Shown: in pieces, positions 31,961 to 55,140 of the stretch
Layout: each line of letters starts with the position of its first letter
Position numbering within the stretch: the stretch's first letter is position 1
Assembly (NCBI GenBank): GCA_963924555.1
Contig: OZ004581.1
Coordinates: forward strand, 1,922,001 to 1,986,000
Direction of reading: 5' to 3'
Source: Crambe crambe
Taxonomy: Eukaryota > Porifera > Demospongiae > Poecilosclerida > Crambeidae
Length of the DNA: 64,000 bases
The notes under the pieces: model-generated
Told to the model about the DNA's origin: nothing
Databases searched by the model: none
The model's input: only the letters and a program-made list of their open reading frames with translations
Position numbers and translations under genes: made by a program

Positions 31961-33001
31961 GAGTGCTAAAAGAAAAAAAAAATTTGCATCCATTAATAGT
32001 TAACCAAGATGGCAGATTCAATTCCACCAGGTAGCTACAGCTATGAGTAGTTAGCTCGAGTGTTGTAGCCAACTAGCTAGCTGCAAAAAAACAACACTAG
32101 AGACTAGTCTAGCTACTTTGTACCTGCAAGCATGCATTTTGCCTTATGCTCTTTACATCCATCCAGCTAATCTCTAAACCGTGTCCAGCTAAATTTTTTC
32201 CCTGTTTATTTCACAGGTGTTCAAGCAAAAAACTGCTGTGGGAGTAACAGACTTGTATGCAGTGGAGAAGACTGGAATTACACTTATACATGCCCTGAAC
32301 ATCAAGAGACACTGGAACATACTTCCACTCGTGCAGTGCACTGTGCTGTATATTTACCCAGGTCCCGCCTGCAAGGAAACTATGCAGAGAAAGCCTATAT
32401 GTGGTCACAGCTGAGAGAAAGATGCCTGAAAGAAAAATCCATGCTAGTCACAGGTCTCCGAGAAAGGAGAGATAATGACCTCAAATTGTCAGGTAAGGTA
32501 AGCTGAGACAATAATAGCTACCTGATCGTGGGGTGGAGCTGAACTTGGCAGAGGCCTTGATCGTCTTGCCCATGCAGCATAGCTATAGTATTTAGCTACA
32601 TAGCTAGCTTGCATGAAGTACGTATAGTTTGATATTTATAGTTTGCATGAATATAGTTGGCAGACGATAGCTAAGTATGAATACTTAATTGCTATAGCCA
32701 GAAAGTGCATAACTAAAATCAACATTCAACATGCAAAATTAGCTATAGCAAAATTGAATACAACAAATTGATTGATGTACATTCTCAATTAGCTATAGGA
32801 TTAAGACAGTTGCAACACCTTCAGCAAAGAGATGAGAGAGACTTGTGCAGCTTGCAGCGTGCTGTGCATGAGAACTGGGCCGAGGAAGAGAGAAGAGGAG
32901 ATTTGGAAGTAGGGAAAACACTTGTTGATAGTGTCCAAGTGTTCACCTGCTGCAGTTTGAACTATTCTGTTCATCTAGATGCAGACTATGATGTTATAGT
33001 G

Positions 33002-33180
33002 CACTGTAAAAAAAAAAGTGGGCACCTCACACCTAATGTGGTGTGTCAGCTTTGTCCCAATAGACACACTTTTTGAAGTGTGCTTAACACACCACTATTA
33101 TAAGCGTTCCTCACACACCATTAATCTGTGTGTTTTGCACACTTATATTGGTGGGTTCATCACACACTCTTATTAGTAGC
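33002..33180. repeat. Left subterminal repeat region of the CACTA-like element
   Basis: Repeated CACACC, GTGTGC and TGTGTG words in both orientations within 180 bp, for example TAATGTGGTGTGTC, GTGTGCTTAACACACC and GTGTGTTTTGCACAC. These are likely transposase-binding sites, by analogy with plant CACTA elements. Confidence 0.6.
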
Positions 33181-33196
33181 CCAGCTGAAAATTGAA

Positions 33197-33197
<1 letters not shown>

Positions 33198-33256
<59 letters not shown>
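33198..33256. repeat. (AAT)n microsatellite
   Basis: About 19 AAT triplets, between the subterminal repeats and the 3' end of the SAMD3-like gene. A frame reading poly-asparagine through it is not a gene. Confidence 0.95.
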
Positions 33257-33258
<2 letters not shown>

Positions 33259-33341
33259 AACTGAGGATCATGGTCAGTTCTTGGACAATAAACTAGTATA
33301 CAAATGTTTGACAGAGGCCGGGGCCTTATCAATAGGATAAT

Positions 33342-35989
33342 TCATGACAATAACTTCCATAAACGAGTAAAAGTTTGAACAGGTTGGAGTATAACATAAT
33401 CAAAGACAAAAAAAGATGCCATTAGCAATAACGGAATCATAGGAATACGAACTTCCATTATAACTTTTGCATCGATCACTAGAAAAGCCTGGTCCTGGTC
33501 CTTCGGAGATCCAATAACCATTATATATGGATTCAGTAACTTGTTATCTTTGGCAATACCTTCAACATTAGCAGCACCCTAGATTAAAAAACAAAACAAA
33601 AAAACAAAACACAGTCATAATTATGTATCACACCAAACTAATAGAAAGAATGTTGGTGATAGTTACACATGTGCACTGAAGCAATTCTACATTTAAGATT
33701 AGTGAGCCAAACTATACTGTAAACATTAGGGATATGAGAGAGCAAACCAAAAGAAAGTGAGAAAGTTCTGATCCAGTCTATAGGAGTTATATGAAGAGCA
33801 ATGAGAGCAAAAGGAGGAAAGCCATACTCTCATTACTGTGTTGTTAATTATGAACTCAAAACTTATTACAGTAGATCCTCACTAACTTGAAACTAGGTTA
33901 CTCTCGCTGACTTACAATTACACACAAAAGTTCAAAGTTCAAAATGCACCCTGTGACAGAGCGCTGTTAAGTTAGTGAGGATCTACTGTCATTAATTATT
34001 ACTTGCTTTTAATTTTTTGCTCATTCATGCTACATTCTTTGGAGTGCACATGTGCAGCATGTATACATGATTATTATTATAAAGTATAGTGGGAAAATTT
34101 GGCAAAAGTTTTATTTGAAAAACTGCTGTCCAAAGCAATACTTTAAACTGTATTTTAGTCATAATTTTTCACAATACAAAATAGTCATTACATATGGGTC
34201 ATGGAATCTGTCACAGCTAGCTAGTACACTCCCATAGTGATTAATTTACCTCAGTAAAGAAGATAACTTTATTACTATCTGGCTTTGTCCTTACATCTGG
34301 AAGCATATACACTAAGCACATTATGGCCACAGGGATATTAAAATCTGCAAGAGTTATTTTATAAAATATTAAATTTAAACAATAATCTATAGCTATAGCT
34401 AGCCACAGAGGCTTCACCAGGGCAAGGGGATCCATGCATCATATTAGAGTAGATATTCTGATTAATAGCTAGTAATAAGCATGCGTGTCCTGACTTCCAC
34501 CAAAAAAATTTTTCTTTGTATGCAAGCCTATAGCTACCTACACTCACCGTCAATATCAAGGTCTTTTACAGCATTTTTCAAATGTGTGTTGCTAACCATT
34601 TCAAGCTTTGCTTGTCTCAATATTTTTGGAACAATCATGTTCAACCTTTCATCTGACTGCTTCACAATGTCACACTTCAGATATCTCCCAAGATCTCTGA
34701 TCAGCTACATTAAAAAAAAAAGAGAGTGAGCACTGCATGAAAGCGGAATTGGAAGCTCAAAAATAACCTAGAGAGCTAGCTATAAAAATTTTGATTAGCA
34801 GCAGCCCACGAGAAAAGTGAAAAGTACATGTTGACTGATATAGTTGACTACAGTATAGAACCTCGGTTATCTGGATAGGTGAAAGAGTATTATTTTCCAT
34901 GGCAATTCTATTTAACACACACCAAAATTGTTAAGAATATTGTTAATTTGCCATGTGCCAGATAATCAAGGTGCTGAGGTCCAGATAACCAAGATTCTAC
35001 TGTACCCAATGATCAACTTACATGGCTGCTGCTTTGAAGAAAAGGATAACTATCAAATACTGAGTCAAGGTCGTGGCTCTCTGAGTGGAGATCATCCCAA
35101 CGCATTGCAAATGACTGCTCCATCAATTCATCCACGAGGCTCTGGTTATGTGATTTTTTTTTCCACTCAGCTTTTAGCACATTATTGTGTCTATTAAAAG
35201 ATGTTTTATCCTCTCCTCGAGGAATTTGTGGAGAGGTGATAGGACAAGTGATACCAGGGGACTTTGGTTTAGCAGCCACCAAAACTTGGGAAGGGTTAGA
35301 ATCTCTTGGCTTTCGTGGTTTTTTCTTCCGCCGAAACTCTTTGAACCTGTCACTCAATGATTTCACTATACCTCCCTACAAAATAAAGGTAATACATCAT
35401 TGAAATGATACCTAGTTATCGCACAGATAGGTACACAGTAAACACACACTTCATCCCACAAGACCTGAAGTAGGTTGCCGGTCAGAAACACACACAACAC
35501 TTAATTCTGCCTACAAGACCCGAAAGCAGGTTGCCGGTCAGAAATACACATACATACACAACACTAATTCTGCCTACAAGACCCGAAAGCAGGTCGCCGG
35601 TCAGAAACACACATACACAATGATTCTGCCTACAAGACCCGAAAGCAGGTCGCTGGTCAGAAACACACATACACAATGCTTCTGCCTACAAGACCCAAAA
35701 GCAGGTCGCCGATCAGAAACACACATACACAATGCTTCTGCCTACAAGACCCGAAAGCAGGTCGCCAGGTCGCCGGTCAGAAACACACATACACAATGAT
35801 TCTGCCTACAAGACCCGAAAGCAGGTCGCCAGTCAGAAACACACATACACAATGATTCTGCCTACAAGACCCGAAAGCAGGTCGCCGGTCAGAAACACAC
35901 ATACACTTCTGCCTACAAGACCCGAAAGCAGGTAGCCAGTCATACACAATGCTTCTGCCTACAAGACCCGAAAGCAGGTCACCGGTTAG

Positions 35990-36065
<76 letters not shown>

Positions 36066-37106
36066 GACCTGGAAGCAGGAAACTACAGTTAATACTTACA
36101 TATGTTGCTCCTACTGGTGACTTCATAAATGGATACTTCACTATGATGCTTCGAGCAACGCAGCAGTGGTCATCTTTACTTGGATATTTTTTGTAATTTA
36201 GCATTGCTGAAGCAACTGCAGATAAAAAGGTGCTTCTAGTTTCTTGAGTAAGTTCTCCCGATTTCAGTGCAATTTCTACATCAGATCGATAATTCTTGGG
36301 GAGAGGAAAGGGGTCAGGCAATGGTATATTGTCATCTTCACTCTTGACAAGCTTTCTTTTCTTCACAGCAGCAAGTTGGACTTGAAGGGGTTTAACACCA
36401 CCATCATCACCCTCAGAGCTATTTGAATCATCTTCCAGAAGACACGTTCTGCGATGCATGCTGACTCTTGAAGCAGTTGGTGTATCTACTGATGCAGACT
36501 AAAAGAGAGAAATGATATAGCCAGTATTAAAACGCAAACCTTTTCAGGGCTCACAGTAACAACACTCAGGACATGATTATCTAATAGCAGTTTTAAATGT
36601 ATAGCTATAGTAGGAAAATTGGTCGGATAAAGGCAGAAAATGACTGAACAAATGAAGAAATTGACCAGAAAATGTCCTGTGACTGACTGTTATTGTGAGC
36701 CCTACCTTTTATATATAAGTTAAATAATTGGCATATTACTAGTACTAATAAGTTTCTATTTAATTCAATTACTTACATCACTGAATGTGTCTGAAGAAGG
36801 TGATAAATCATAACAGCGTGACACTGGTAGTGTTTCATGCATACCACTTGATGTCTTTGAAGTTACAATAGCCTTAACCTTGTCCTTATGCAGAAGAGTA
36901 TCGGTCAAATCAAGATCAATATATTCATCCCATCCACTATCATATTGTTGAAGAGTCACTGAAACATTAGAGCTGTCTTCAACAGAAAATAGCTTTATGA
37001 ACTCTCCTGTTAAAAATTGTAAGTCGCTATCAACTTTATGATTGAGGGGAATTTTTACGAGTTTCTTCTTATCCAAGTAGGTAACAAGAACAGTCACTGA
37101 TGTCAT
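33342..37106 (-). CDS. SAMD3-like protein carried by the transposon (523 aa, six exons)
   Basis: Exons in coding order: 37106-36777, 36498-36100, 35375-35022, 34704-34548, 34344-34250, 33578-33342. All introns are GT-AG and the joined frame is open for 523 codons. Residues 1 to about 85 look like a PB1/ubiquitin-like fold (TVLVTYLDKKKLVKIPL and following). Exon 2 has an acidic/basic linker, then PDPFPLPKNYRSDVEIALKS and TFLSAVASAMLNYKKYPS, and ends KYPFMKSPVGATY. Exon 3 has a basic KRF/RKKK region, then GEDKTSFNRHNNVLKAEWKK and LVDELMEQSFAMRWDDL. Exon 6 has NPYIMVIGSPKDQDQAFLVI. These signatures match, from memory, proteins labelled SAMD3-like in fishes and invertebrates. The SAM domain itself is not seen. 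Function is unknown, and its place in a transposon suggests a role in mobility or in controlling it. Two MITEs, a minisatellite and a (CA)n tract sit in its introns. Confidence 0.7.
33867..33990. mobile_element. MITE nested in the transposon (3' of the SAMD3-like exon 6 acceptor)
   Basis: The inverted ends TACAGTAGATCCTCACTAAC and GTTAGTGAGGATCTACTGTC are nearly perfect over about 21 bp. pogo-like in style, although a clean TA duplication is not visible on the right. It lies in intron 5. Confidence 0.65.
34849..35004. mobile_element. pogo-like MITE nested in intron 3 of the SAMD3-like gene
   Basis: TA on both sides. The ends CAGTATAGAACCTCGGTTAT and ATAACCAAGATTCTACTG pair imperfectly, with a further CTGGA/TCCAG pair inside. 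It inserted 18 bp from the donor of exon 3 without touching it. Confidence 0.65.
35455..35990. repeat. Minisatellite, about 56-bp unit, in intron 2 of the SAMD3-like gene
   Basis: About nine copies of a unit with TTCTGCCTACAAGACCCGAA, AGCAGGTCGCCGGTCAGAAA and a CACACATACACAAT tail. Units vary slightly in the tail and one is partly duplicated inside. A partial copy follows the (CA)n tract at 36065-36085, just inside the donor of exon 2. The frames called here on both strands are artefacts of the repeat. Confidence 0.9.
35992..36064. repeat. (CA)n microsatellite
   Basis: About 36 CA dinucleotides, apparently grown from the CA-rich tail of the adjacent 56-bp unit. It inflates a poly-Cys-Val frame on the minus strand that extends the exon 2 frame past its donor at 36099. 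Confidence 0.95.
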
Positions 37107-37332
37107 TCTTACCTATTATTTAACAGATATAAAAAGAATAATCAACCTGGCTAGTAACGCACACACGTCTATTGGCTATGCTAGCTACTTACTTCTTACA
37201 AGCTTATCGGTCAGTGCAGCAGCGGCTATTCCATTCGTTTCTAGATCCTCGAGGTAAGATGTCAGCAGCTGCTTTTCGGCCCATATGCGCATGCGCACTA
37301 TCGATGTCATAGTAATAGTACATGTCATAAAG
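37107..37332. promoter_or_regulatory. Short bidirectional promoter inside the transposon
   Basis: 226 bp separate the ATG of the SAMD3-like gene (minus) from the ATG of the C2H2 ORF (plus). It contains a perfect TGCGCATGCGCA palindrome at 37286-37297, the consensus site of NRF1 (alpha-Pal), which is common in animal bidirectional promoters. No TATA box is evident. Confidence 0.5.
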
Positions 37333-37686
37333 ATGAAGGTTACCTGTTGGATTTGTCACAGATATGCAGCGCCTACTTTTAAGCTAGTATTGCGCCACAT
37401 GGCTGCTGTACACGCCCACGATCCAAATTTTCACACTATTTGTGGAATTGAAGAATGCCCCAGGACCTACACTAATTTCTATTCATTTAAGAAACATCTG
37501 TACCGCAAACACAAGGAAGTTCTGAACTTAGTACCTTCCCTACAAGAACAAAATGTAACAATAAATGTTGATGAAGACAATGAAGATGATTCTTTGATTT
37601 GTGAGGAAAATGGTTATGATACACAAGAAAATGATGAGATGAAACATTTGGTATTGTTCATTCTTGAACTTCCTTCACATAGTTGA
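37333..37686 (+). CDS. Two-finger C2H2 protein start, probably truncated transposon gene (117 aa)
   Basis: The ATG at 37333 gives MKVTCWICHRYAAPTF. Finger 1 is C-x2-C-x13-H-x4-H. Finger 2 is CGIEECPRTYTNFYSFKKHL followed by YRKH, a C-x4-C-x12-H-x4-H form. An acidic tail follows (VDEDNEDDS, EENGYDTQENDE) and the frame ends at 37684-37686. From about 37640 it runs antisense into the end of the coiled-coil gene, so the rest of a longer protein was probably removed by an internal deletion. Paired C2H2 fingers of this style precede large uncharacterised transposase-like regions in animal elements (recalled, not searched). It may be the DNA-binding start of the missing transposase. Confidence 0.55.
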   Translation: MKVTCWICHRYAAPTFKLVLRHMAAVHAHDPNFHTICGIEECPRTYTNFYSFKKHLYRKHKEVLNLVPSLQEQNVTINVDEDNEDDSLICEENGYDTQENDEMKHLVLFILELPSHS

Positions 37687-38665
37687 TTTCTCCAGAAATC
37701 CTGGACGATTTCTATCTTCCGGTTCAGAGTATCGTTTAATTCACGCTTTTCCCTTTTCAGTCGCTCTGCTAAGTTATGATATAATAGAGCATTTAACTCA
37801 GCTCTCTTGTCATTCTCGACCTCAGCAACTATAGCAGTACGTTCAATATTACTAAGCTTCAATCCCTTGTTTGTCAAACTTTGTGAAACCGCCTTTTCTG
37901 ACTGCATCTGTATTGGCAAAAGTAGAGAGTCTGATTGTTGTGTATGTGATTCTTTCTCAGCCTGTCTGTATTTCATATTAATATCTTCAACGAATGCTTC
38001 ATATTGCTCTTTTTGCTCCATATTCCTCAGCCTTTTCATTTCAGCATGTTCCTCTTCGATCCGTTTCTCCTTTTCTCGCAACTCCATTTCTTTGCTCTCT
38101 TCTCTCTCATGTGCTTCTTTTCTTCACTTCCATCTCAGTGCATGTTTCTTTGTCCATCTGTATCTTATTCGCTTGAGTCGTATTGTTTCCAATCTTTTAG
38201 GCTTTCTTGGAGGCTGCATGTAATTAATAATTATATAGCTAGTTTGAACAGTGATCTCAGAAACCCAAAAAGCCATTCCCTAATGGGCAGTAAAATTCAT
38301 TGGTCACATTATATCTACCTCTCCCTTGCTCACAACTGCAGAGGCTCATGTCATCATACATTATGAATATACTGGTGCTATAGCTGTATACTATGCCCAA
38401 TGGCCTGCTTCAATTAAGAATGCCTGTGGGCCTAAAATTATAGCTAGACATGTAGCTATAATAGCTAGCAAATAGCTTTAAAGTGAATCCAGCTATAGAA
38501 GCTATAGCTAGCTAGCTATGATCATTCACATTGTATACATCTTACCTTAAGCATATCAAAATCAAGTTTTCTTATTGTGCCAGAACTGATGGTTGAAAGA
38601 TTAATAGACTGGGAGATATCAGGTGTATAACTGCTATTAACATCTTCAGTAAAATCAGTAGCCAT
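37614..38665 (-). pseudogene. Coiled-coil gene of the transposon, one in-frame stop
   Basis: Two exons: 38665-38546 (40 codons, MATDFTEDVNSSYTPD... to DFDMLK) with donor GTAAGA, and 38213-37614 after a CATGCAG acceptor, both in phase 0. Exon 2 starts basic (PPRKPKRLETIRLKRIRYRW) and meets a TGA at 38124-38126. It then continues in the same frame with a long charged coiled coil (EESKEMELREKEKRIEEEHA and following) and ends with IVQDFWRNQLCEGSSR. A single stop in an otherwise open frame suggests recent loss, possibly a CGA-to-TGA change. The last residues overlap the C2H2 frame antisense and may not be native. The role is unknown: perhaps dimerisation or an accessory factor. Confidence 0.5.
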
Positions 38666-38734
38666 GTGATAGCTATCTGACCTTTGCACTGCATGATTCA
38701 TGCATGCAGCTGCCTTTCGATAGGGTGTGAAATG

Positions 38735-38931
38735 CCCACTTGCAATGGTGTGTACAGTACACTTTAACATCATAAGGTGTGTTGTATACACCTTAAAGGG
38801 TTGCACACCATAATCTCTGTGTGAAGTCTACACCATTCAATTGCTAGGTGTGCTGAACACTCCCTAAATAGTACCACACCAAGGGTGTGCAAAGATTTTG
38901 GTGTGCTACACACACAACCGTTTTTACAGTG
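38735..38931. repeat. Right subterminal repeat region of the CACTA-like element
   Basis: Mirror of the left end: GGTGTGTACAGTACAC, AAGGTGTGTTGTATACACC, TTGCACACC, AGGTGTGCTGAACAC, ACCACACCAAGGGTGTGC and GGTGTGCTACACACAC within about 200 bp, mostly as GGTGTG...CACACC pairs. Confidence 0.6.
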
Positions 38932-39602
38932 TGCTTCCAAATACTAAATACAGTCATTGATTGTTTGCCAATCTCTCACACTTAAAATTATTTTAATAGC
39001 TAATTATTAATATTGAAAATTAAAAAAATTCAATTTTTTGGTTGTATAATAATAATAATTATAGTATCATACAAACCATATAGTCCATTCCTGTGGTCAC
39101 TTAGTGGTAGAGATTGTTATTGTCCAATTCATGTGCAAGCAACAGGGATGAGTTTCAGAACTATATATACTTCCACCATACATGCATGCCTGAATGTAGC
39201 TATGTACTTCAAAGGGTCCTCTTGAAATGGGACTGCCAAAGACTATAGCCACGTAAACAAACCACGAAGATTCTCAAGTTTTGTTTATAACACTGTCACA
39301 ACATGTATGGCATTAGGTATACAGTCCCATCGAAACAGCCCCCTAAATTCCCACAGTGTGGTTGGTTCAGATTATGGAGAACAGGCATGATCAGCAAGAT
39401 TATAGGCAGCTATGAATGCAACACCCCATTTGTATACCGAAAGAAATCGTTGCTAGTATACATATAGTCAAAATTCAGACACAGCTTATGACAACTCCTC
39501 CTTCTGGAGCGAGTAGCCCAACCCAATCTGGAGCGCAGATGAGTAGATAATTTATGCTCTAGTCCTATCAATAAATTACAAGTGTATCTAGCTATTGTAT
39601 TC

Positions 39603-52391: not shown

Positions 52392-55140
52392 AAAGTCAGT
52401 CTATAGGGGTTGCCATGTATTGGAACCTCCACTTTAGTAGCGAAGTGAATACTTCAAGTTGGAAAAGTGTTACGTTAAGAGAGGTACGTATACTGCATGT
52501 CTTGGTGTAGGTCAGTCTATAGTATAATTATAATTATATTTAACATAAGGTAAGGCGGGGCAATAATGAGGAATTCCGACACTGTAAAAATAGTGATATT
52601 CCAGTCGGTCTAGTTGAAGAAACAAAGATTATCAAAAAATGATGGAATTGCCCCACCCTCGAAATTGTCCTGCCTTACCTTACATTGGAACCTCTCTATG
52701 ATGGATACTTCAAATTGGAACCAACCTTATAGTTACATACGTGCTAGTGAAATCAAAACCTAACGCTATTGGTGGTTGTGGTTGGACAGTGTTACGTACC
52801 ATGTGACTGTTCTGGTGTCAGTGGTGTGTGTTTGGCTAAGTATAAACCTCACTGTTGGGGACAGGCCATAATAGCAGGTTGATCTGGCTTCATTGTAATG
52901 AAGGGTTGTTATGTTTGCATGCACCATGGGACCATGTGACTGTTGGGGACAGGTCACAATAGCTAGAGGTGCAGGTTGATCTGGCTTCATTATAACTACC
53001 TATTCAAAGGGTTGATATGTGGTTGGTGGTTGTGGTTGCACCATGGGATCATGTGAGTGTTTTGGTGTCAGTGGTATGTGTTTAGCTACGTAAGTCTTAA
53101 GCCACCACAAAGTGGTCTCTTTTTTTAGCTAAGTGTATTCAGGCCAGAGAGGGGAAATTCATTGTACGTAGCTATGTATGGTCCATAACATTTTGAGGGG
53201 TTCTCAATTGACTCCAGGCATTTGTTACCATCTATAACATTGAGGGTAGTCCCCTATCTAATGACCTTAAGTTACGTCTATATTGACACTTTTCTAATAC
53301 CACTTAATCACTTAATTGTCTTGATAATGATCAGATAATTATTTCAGGGTTAGGGCTAGCCCCTGTGATGATTACTTTTGGTTAGGGACTCTTAATTATG
53401 TACCATTTAGAATAAATTTAACAATCATTCACAAGTGGACATTTCAATCAGACTAAATTTAGAGCCATGGCAGACACGTTTATACCATGACATCCTACAC
53501 AGAGTACAACATGAGTAATTGTCCATGTAATAAGGTTCAATTGGAAGTTGTGACATCTAATCAAACTCATGGTGCACTAATCAAAACTATTTGGGTGCAA
53601 TTCTCATGCTTAGGGTAGCTATATATGGACTTAATTACAAATTATGTAATTCACATTCAATTCTGATATTAGAAATCACTGAATGCCTTGATCATTAATT
53701 TAATTGGCTCTAACTTTCTCAATCCCCCACTTTACGAATTGTTGCAATATTTACAATCGATTAATTTTCGGACGGCAAAAGATGGCCAAGACATCAATCA
53801 GAGATACCTCAAGTGAGTTTTATGTATGAGCCTAACTGCTGTCTACAATAGTCTTAAAGGAGTTCTAGCTTGCAAGCTTCTTGCTACATTGCAAGCCTCT
53901 TGCTTAGTCTTCTTGTGCTTGAAGTACAAGAAGACTTGTTTCATGGCTTTAGCTACATACATTATGGTCATGAAGATGAAAGCATTCTGCTGCCAATTAT
54001 AAAATGATGCATAGCTATATGATACTGGCTTCTAGAGTTACAGTGTTACAATGTTCTCTTGCTTCTGTATCAGTGAACATAAAATAACCACAGTTTTACC
54101 TTTCATGGTTATCAACTCATAAGTAACGATCATAATAATTTTATGTTTAGAAGTGCTCTAAATCAGCAGCATTCTGCTAAACAAAAAAAAAATCTGAACC
54201 ACATAGCTATACATATGTGTAGTTATGGCCCTGGTCCTTGAATAATGTACAATGAACTTTGTCCTTTCATGAACACAAGTAAATAATGTGGGCTCATGAC
54301 TCATAACTCAGTAATTCTAGGAATAAAGGTTATTAAATCCAGTTGAACCCTTTGCCCAATATTATAGAAAGCATGGGAAGGAGGAAGAGGTGACCTGATA
54401 TTCAATAATAAAACCACTTAAAAATATCTGGTGGGAATAGGACTGGTAAGAATGTGTACTTTATGTCAACTGAAACAATGACCTTTGCCCTTTTTCTAAA
54501 CACGCTGAATCCATATTCAATGCAACCAAGGCATTGCCAAGCAACTTATGTAAGTCACACAGGAAGCTTATCGTAACTTTCCTAATATTATATTATTAAT
54601 GTAAACATTGCTTAGATCTTTATAGCTGGGTCATATTCCTTCCTACGTATATAAATATGTTGGGGAATTTAAAGTTCAAAATTGCATAATATATAAAGTC
54701 ACTAGGAAATCATACTAATTAATAAATTTACGTAGCTGTTCTGAAAGGGGTACCATAAGTCATCATACGTATACGTATATAGCTATTATACTTAGCTGTG
54801 ATAAATTGCATGTTATAATGCATGTTGACCTGACATTAATTTTGTGAATTGAAATACCTGCTAACTATGTAATATGTATTATGTACATTGAAAAAAAATC
54901 TATGCAAACACTAACTTGCTGTAACAGTACGTCAATTTGAAGCTTGCTGTCAATTTGAAGCTACTCTAGACTACACAGTCTACATCCTTTGATAATTCAG
55001 TTTACTCTAATTCTTGACCAAACTTCACATTTCACAGAGAGCTGAAGTTTGAAATGTGGTCAAAGTTATAGTGGTCATAAAATGGTATCAAGTGAATGCA
55101 AATAGAGAATACAAGCATAAATTGAAACACTCATGGACCT

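Follow-up and report, generated by a model that had tools for sequence, protein, structure and literature searches.

A recently mobile, non-autonomous DNA transposon of the sponge Crambe crambe with a SAMD3-like gene, and its probable place in a two-gene transposon group

Introduction

The CMC (CACTA-Mirage-Chapaev)/CMCT clade of DNA transposons is defined, besides other features, by 5'-CA..TG-3' termini and target-site duplications of 2-5 bp (PMC12730594). CACTA/EnSpm elements, including animal TRC elements such as SmTRC1, have inverted-repeat ends (CACTA in plants, CCC in animal TRC), 2-bp duplications in the animal members and a transposase with a D-x-(L/M)-H motif and CXXC, and in Spm a second element-encoded protein is needed beside the transposase (PMC1636069). 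From fungi the EnSpm-like elements CNEST (PMC12810828) and ESTA (PMC12730594) have been described, with TA duplications of 2 bp, CA-type ends and a CMC-type transposase, and the CNEST transposase is grouped with unclassified animal transposases (PMC12810828). The subject of this paper is an element of the demosponge Crambe crambe (assembly GCA_963924555.1) located at positions 33002-38931 of a 64,000-nucleotide stretch of contig OZ004581.1 (positions 1,922,001 to 1,986,000), the whole of which is called the window. It carries a gene for a protein referred to here as SAMD3-like, and it very probably belongs, as a recently mobile and non-autonomous member moved in trans, to a two-gene transposon group in which the SAMD3-like protein would serve as a co-factor.

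The element resembles CACTA/EnSpm in its inverted-repeat ends and 2-bp duplications, and its longer relative does so in the D-x-(L/M)-H and CXXC motifs of the transposase; a second protein beside the transposase is a feature in common with Spm. The element differs from that group in its CACTG ends and in the transposase of its longer relative, which has N-terminal C2H2 fingers and is without a match to Transposase_21 (PF02992), while in contrast to Spm the second protein comes from a SAMD3-like gene of its own, divergently oriented, and not from a splice form. CNEST and ESTA, likened to it by description only, are fungal; CNEST ends begin with CACGG, and the parts of the two descriptions drawn on here name a transposase for CNEST and a transposase with a TET/JBP gene for ESTA, with no mention of a SAMD3-like gene (PMC12810828, PMC12730594). 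No tie to a transposon was found in the titles and abstract openings of the literature naming SAMD3, SAMD3-like or sterile alpha motif (Repbase reports were outside this scope), and scans of viral and prokaryotic contigs gave no relatives.

Boundaries, copies and mobility of the element

The host assembly that was searched comprises 143 Mb in 119 contigs. The element is delimited by the following features.

33002-38931: whole non-autonomous DNA transposon, 5,930 bp
33000-33001: left TG target-site duplication, an exact 2-bp repeat directly outside the left end
38932-38933: right TG target-site duplication, an exact 2-bp repeat directly outside the right end
33002-33012, plus strand: left terminal inverted repeat CACTGTAAAAA, with which the element starts; the same 11-mer is at both ends of the longer relative on contig C3 described below
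38921-38931, minus strand: right terminal inverted repeat TTTTTACAGTG, with which the element ends; common to the window family and the C3 relative
33013-33200: left subterminal region, rich in GTGTG/CACAC-type repeats in both orientations, from hexamer and word counts
38700-38920: right subterminal region, rich in GGTGTG/CACACC repeats, its outer 60 bp or so being 82% identical to the end of the relatives on contigs C3 and C13

Three further full-length copies are present in the assembly (C8:5056209-5062084, C3:5106504-5112285 and C3:1808103-1813925). All four share their end points and have different flanks: CACTG and CAGTG are the exact limits of homology, and the adjoining 50 bp on the outside are unlike each other. 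The first 201 bp of the element are found at these four genomic places with 100% identity, the last 232 bp at the same places with 99-100% (and at two more with 82% over about 60 bp), and the interior, again at the same four, with 95-100%. Compared with the C8 copy, the window copy has 24 substitutions in 5,225 positions, summed over 16 aligned regions; length differences between copies are mostly located in a minisatellite region, with shorter indels elsewhere. The sibling copies are bordered by TA duplications and the window copy by TG. When the C3 and C13 copies of the longer relative are added to the four of the window family, an exact 2-bp duplication is seen at all six insertions examined (TA, which is a feature of CNEST and ESTA, in four and TG in two).

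Empty sites were searched for in the genome with the flanks of the six sites joined by script, and 40 of 102 candidates were scored. Of these, 32 run unbroken across the site of the C3:5106504 copy (94-100%, over a length of about 220 bp) and the remaining eight across that of the C8 copy (95-100%); the empty sites hold one TA. Because these empty sites recur elsewhere in the genome, both copies must have been inserted into members of repeated families. Of the 14 GGTGTG/CACACC hexamers of the window element, 12 are subterminal, falling within the outer 2 x 250 bp of its 5,930 bp. The window element is a recently mobile DNA transposon, as is evidenced by its ends, its duplications and the empty sites of its siblings. 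The original prediction, made from the window alone, had proposed a mobile element with CACTG...CAGTG ends, a TG duplication and subterminal repeats; all of this was confirmed, and the other copies with the same ends on which it depended were found in three places.

The longer relative and its transposase

A longer form in which the C2H2 frame leads into a transposase had also been anticipated, and a C2H2 exon followed by transposase exons indeed occurs at C3:951799-960994. This relative (9,196 bp, starting with CACTGTAAAAAATTAAG and ending with TTTTTACAGTG, with TG duplications) contains SAMD3-like exons on the minus strand, then 260 bp between the matches, a C2H2 exon on the plus strand and transposase exons up to 959400. 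The matches of the two divergent genes are 210-260 bp apart in the C3 and C13 relatives as well as in the window family, and farther apart in others. The second copy of the relative (C13:4111602-4118771, 7,170 bp, TA duplications) is without about 2.1 kb (C3:956388-958468) from the central part of the transposase; identity over the aligned remainder is 99.1-99.8%, and the compared part of its SAMD3-like gene aligns with the C3 relative. As this copy lost the middle of the transposase and is otherwise near-identical, non-autonomous copies can be said to arise by internal deletion, and taken together with the window copy it follows that the SAMD3-like gene has been kept in two independent transposase-deleted lineages. 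Termini were seen for the window family and the C3/C13 relatives only, and SAMD3-like genes flanked by such termini, which had been predicted, are those of the 9.2-kb element and its 7.2-kb second copy.

Judged from its sequence, the longer form consists of two divergent genes, one SAMD3-like and one encoding a C2H2-DDE transposase with CMC-type motifs. The motif order in the C3 transposase is YYDD, GDN, CRQC, DVMHDCLEG, HYLVH and FEGKH. Y(Y/F)D(D/E), (A/G)DN, CxxC and D-x-MH-x2-LEG are present in the aligned transposase rows that reach those places (CxxC in 13 of 13), and H(3)H and E are visible in the C3 copy only. The C3 transposase matches neither a Pfam family nor a PDB sequence at E<=1, and in Pfam at E<=10 the only match of its pieces was PAS_13 on the last one, weak and below the cut-off. 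PF02992 matches 24 places genome-wide, none of them at these transposase loci.

Termini of the 5'-CA..TG-3' type with duplications in the range of 2-5 bp occur at all six insertions. The ends, the duplication length and the motif order fit the CMCT clade, the two short motifs CRQC and HYLVH being weak evidence alone, as both turn up in 16% of cases when the stretch between GDN and FEGKH, where they stand, is shuffled. By Transposase_21, with no match at E<=1 or 10, and by the CACTA core, in place of which CACTG stands in all six insertions, the element is not a member of CACTA/EnSpm.

Contig C3 (9.7 of 143 Mb) has 14 of the 24 PF02992 matches and many transposase and SAMD3-like matches, as if chromosome C3 collected such elements. 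Just outside the C3 relative there is an open reading frame (ORF) with a SWIM-type zinc-finger-like motif (CSCKDW..LPCKHFF; locus L045, 5643-6410, minus strand), which we presume to resemble Mutator-like transposases.

Genome-wide pairing and co-divergence of the two genes

Genome match counts are lower bounds, as the best candidates were scored. There are at least 51 C2H2 matches, at least 69 SAMD3-like exon matches with the window protein as query and at least 39 with a second query, and at least 93 and at least 72 transposase exon matches with two queries. Merging of exon matches, together with eight profile matches from individual loci, resulted in 49 clusters for the SAMD3-like gene and 68 for the transposase, the C2H2 part being included in 51 of the latter. 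A transposase cluster lies within 8 kb of 33 of the 49 SAMD3-like clusters, and the arrangement is head-to-head in 33 of 33. Under uniform random placement (10-kb reach, contigs ignored) the number of chance neighbours was 0.45 on average with a maximum of 4 in 1,000 trials.

The same picture was obtained from a profile search of 26 C2H2 loci with 1.5-kb flanks (L051-L076). A SAMD3-like domain is located upstream on the opposite strand at 20 of them and only its N-terminal part at one (L053); at the other five there is no SAMD3-like match within 1.5 kb, with a match just beyond the flank of L063. Another pair family has three copies (on C1, C8 and C10) whose matches are 96-99% identical, and is for this reason regarded as multi-copy.

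Pairwise distances of the C2H2 part and of the SAMD3-like domain are correlated (r=0.896, 13 loci, 0 of 2,000 permutations). After exclusion of two fragments (L056 and L073) and of near-duplicates the matrix correlation is 0.845 for 11 families (0 of 5,000 permutations), 0.754 for 10 families (0 of 5,000) and 0.592 for nine (2 of 5,000). L051 and L052 did not enter, being represented by the C3 relative. Since their distances co-diverge, the two genes have travelled together for long, and the constant head-to-head pairing with co-divergence makes the SAMD3-like gene a long-standing component of the transposon group; a recent capture is rejected on the same grounds. The suggestion made earlier that the SAMD3-like protein is a mobility component is thus supported by the 33/33 pairing and the co-divergence, while its biochemical role is an inference.

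One side observation concerns C11:4363795-4393828, where four SAMD3-like fragments stand in mirror-image arrangement with no transposase match nearby; an inverted duplication, or SAMD3-like genes outside transposons, are possible explanations.

The SAMD3-like gene

The gene is encoded on the minus strand in six exons with GT/AG borders and 523 codons.

36777-37106, minus strand: exon 1, from the splice model, with a relative in the C3 element
36100-36498, minus strand: exon 2, with a conserved domain of about 75 amino acids (aa) present in ten diverged sequences
35022-35375, minus strand: exon 3, with the basic stretch SLSDRFKEFRRKKKPRK near its start, from the splice model, relatives aligned
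34548-34704, minus strand: exon 4, from the splice model
34250-34344, minus strand: exon 5, from the splice model
33342-33578, minus strand: exon 6, the last 18 codons off-frame relative to the C8 copy and the C3 relative, from copy comparison
35458-36064: 56-bp minisatellite and (AC)n run in intron 2, of different length in the four copies

The six exons and 523 codons stood as predicted, and full intactness did not: a small indel puts the last 18 codons in a frame other than that of the C8 copy and the C3 relative, and for this reason the gene is nearly, not fully, intact. The frame has 546 codons in the C8 copy and 503 in copy C3b, where it is shifted in exon 6, and in copy C3a, shifted in exon 1, it ends after 9 codons. 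The best-conserved part of the protein is the 75-aa domain of exon 2, followed by the basic stretch. This domain presumably resembles fish SAMD3-like predictions, and fish genomes are assumed to hold similar SAMD3-like and transposase-like proteins; both are leads and not tests. Unlike SAMD3 (sterile alpha motif domain-containing protein 3), the 523-aa protein has no SAM domain detected in Pfam at E<=1, where no family was matched at all, and no PDB sequence was found at E<=1. Ten members compared with Pfam gave five families, each in one member (best E 0.025) and none common, and one further Pfam/PDB-type search yielded a single chance-level match to a ribosomal protein.

The introns hold several repeats. 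The minisatellite of intron 2 has about 10 copies of 56 bp and runs into an (AC)36 tract. In intron 1, at 36546-36703, there is a repeat of about 160 bp with inverted ends AGGGCTCACAGTAACA / TGTTATTGTGAGCCCT that is found at 36 other genomic places with 84-89% identity; it is a separate miniature element nested in the transposon. Two more inverted-repeat units resembling miniature elements (about 120-150 bp) are located in SAMD3-like introns at 33853-34004 and 34856-34999.

C2H2 stub and coiled-coil ORF of the window copy

37333-37686, plus strand: N-terminal C2H2 stub (117 aa) of a transposase gene that is longer in the C3 relative; the SAMD3-like gene lies head-to-head with it
37614-38123, minus strand: coiled-coil ORF in place of the transposase body, with genome matches only at the four elements
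38546-38665, minus strand: possible first exon of the coiled-coil gene from a splice model; when joined, the reading meets a stop ahead of the coiled coil in each of the four copies

The C2H2 gene start noticed earlier survives as the 117-aa stub, whose relatives keep the C/H pattern; against the Pfam finger models it stays below the cut-offs (zf-C2H2 15 bits vs 25.2). Continuation of the C2H2 frame within the window was rejected, the frame ending after 117 aa. The longer relative's C2H2 frame leads into transposase exons that are absent here, and on this basis the window copy is a non-autonomous derivative, which has lost the transposase body and retained the C2H2 stub, the SAMD3-like gene and the termini.

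A coiled-coil gene had also been proposed. Its ORF exists, on the opposite strand and overlapping the end of the C2H2 stub, and the gene itself is interrupted by an in-frame stop between the start and the ORF in all four copies according to our splice model. The ORF matches Pfam below the cut-offs only, and the genome search for its relatives matched the four copies only. A coiled-coil gene as a general component was rejected, both for this distribution and for the early stop of the spliced reading; the ORF reads as a passenger that replaced the transposase body.

Short relatives with the same ends

The terminal 11-mer CACTGTAAAAA occurs 1,211 times in the genome as against 234 times for the reversed control word. 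In the first 100 places listed, all on C1, there are 21 neighbouring facing pairs less than 700 bp apart, 18 of which span 91-124 bp, and five other neighbouring pairs. These counts suggest that miniature elements sharing the CACTG ends are numerous. A lone CACTGTAAAAA is present at window position 52580; no exact facing end occurs in the window other than the one with which the element terminates at 38931.

Proposed mechanism and rival explanations

The two-gene longer form, the exact ends, duplications and empty sites, the head-to-head pairing, the co-divergence and the loss of the transposase body are observations. A DNA-binding role of the SAMD3-like protein in transposition is suggested by analogy. 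In the proposed mechanism a transposase made elsewhere would cut at CACTG, insertion would take place at T(A/G), and the SAMD3-like protein would be a nuclear co-factor binding the GTGTG/CACAC subterminal repeats or the transposase and helping to assemble or regulate the transposition complex, as TNPA does for maize Spm. The window lineage may have been moved in trans by a related transposase. TNPA is meant here as a functional analogue, with no claim of sequence relation. The subterminal repeats of Spm are putative TNPA binding sites.

Several results weigh against this interpretation. An empty site for four of the six insertions, including that of the window, was absent among the 40 scored of 102 candidates. 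At the sensitivity used the pairing is not universal, as a transposase is missing within 8 kb of 16 of the 49 SAMD3-like clusters, and a SAMD3-like match is missing at 18 of the 51 transposase clusters that include C2H2. The 33 pairs include near-identical copies (11 families at a 5% threshold, two fragments dropped) and contig C3 is rich in both genes, so that the uniform random model somewhat understates chance; the 33/33 orientation is untouched by these shortcomings. The end concentration of GGTGTG/CACACC is 6 of 16 in the C3 relative vs 12 of 14 in the window element (for GTGTG/CACAC in the relative, 16 of 41 in the outer 500 of 9,196 bp). The search did not turn up a longer element bearing the ends of the window family itself: for the left end there are four matches only, and for the right end four together with the two 82% relatives over about 60 bp. 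Several matches of the C3 transposase cross stop codons, probably into introns, and its exons are predicted, hence it cannot be called intact. The SAMD3-like protein has no recognised domain of known function in family searches, and single-sequence fold predictions of exons 1 and 2 are poor (pLDDT 33 and 44; the latter model suggests three helices and is not relied on), hence its DNA-binding role is no more than putative. The dN/dS was saturated and gave no information.

The main rival, which we consider rather unlikely, makes the SAMD3-like protein a regulator or counter-silencing factor encoded by the element and acting outside the strand-transfer complex. Such a role fits the same data, and sequence alone cannot tell it from that of a co-factor. 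The two genes face away from one short region of 210-260 bp, on which the protein could act as on a shared promoter; TNPA acts on the Spm promoter (PMC1636069), and TET/JBP genes in fungal transposons are known or proposed as element-encoded epigenetic helpers (PMC12730594). However, no domain of such a kind was recognised in the SAMD3-like protein by Pfam searches.

It is much less probable that the SAMD3-like gene is a Pack-type passenger, acquired from the host by a CACTA-like element and playing no role in transposition. Gene capture is known from CACTA-like elements, the neighbouring coiled-coil ORF, interrupted and matched in four copies only, looks like such a passenger, and the 16 unpaired SAMD3-like clusters could be read in the same way; nevertheless, all 33 pairs have one arrangement, across 9-11 diverged families in which the genes co-diverge. 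A single late capture cannot give this arrangement, and repeated captures would not give the co-divergence, which disfavours the passenger explanation. That the element is a solitary repeat or a tandem or segmental duplicate with chance CACTG ends has next to no probability and is refuted, for although a single CACTGTAAAAA may be chance, given one reversed control word in about every 0.6 Mb, there are four copies on three contigs with the same end points, different flanks, exact duplications and, for two, empty sites.

Significance

The element is, with good confidence, a non-autonomous member of a two-gene transposon group with a SAMD3-like co-factor, and in this genome SAMD3-like genes look like working parts of a mobile element, not ordinary host genes. 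A wider and tentative proposal, somewhat doubtful at present, is that the many animal genes annotated as 'SAMD3-like' belong, as the second gene, to a widespread CMC-type superfamily of two-gene transposons with CACTG ends, T(A/G) duplications and a C2H2-DDE transposase, whose obligate DNA-binding partner they encode, and that single-copy ones, possibly vertebrate SAMD3 among them, are domesticated leftovers. If this is true, a family annotated as a host 'SAM domain protein' would become a transposon gene, genome annotations would have to be revised where they count expansions of SAMD3-like genes as evolution of host gene families, and the pair of SAMD3-like gene and transposase would offer a testable two-component transposition system.

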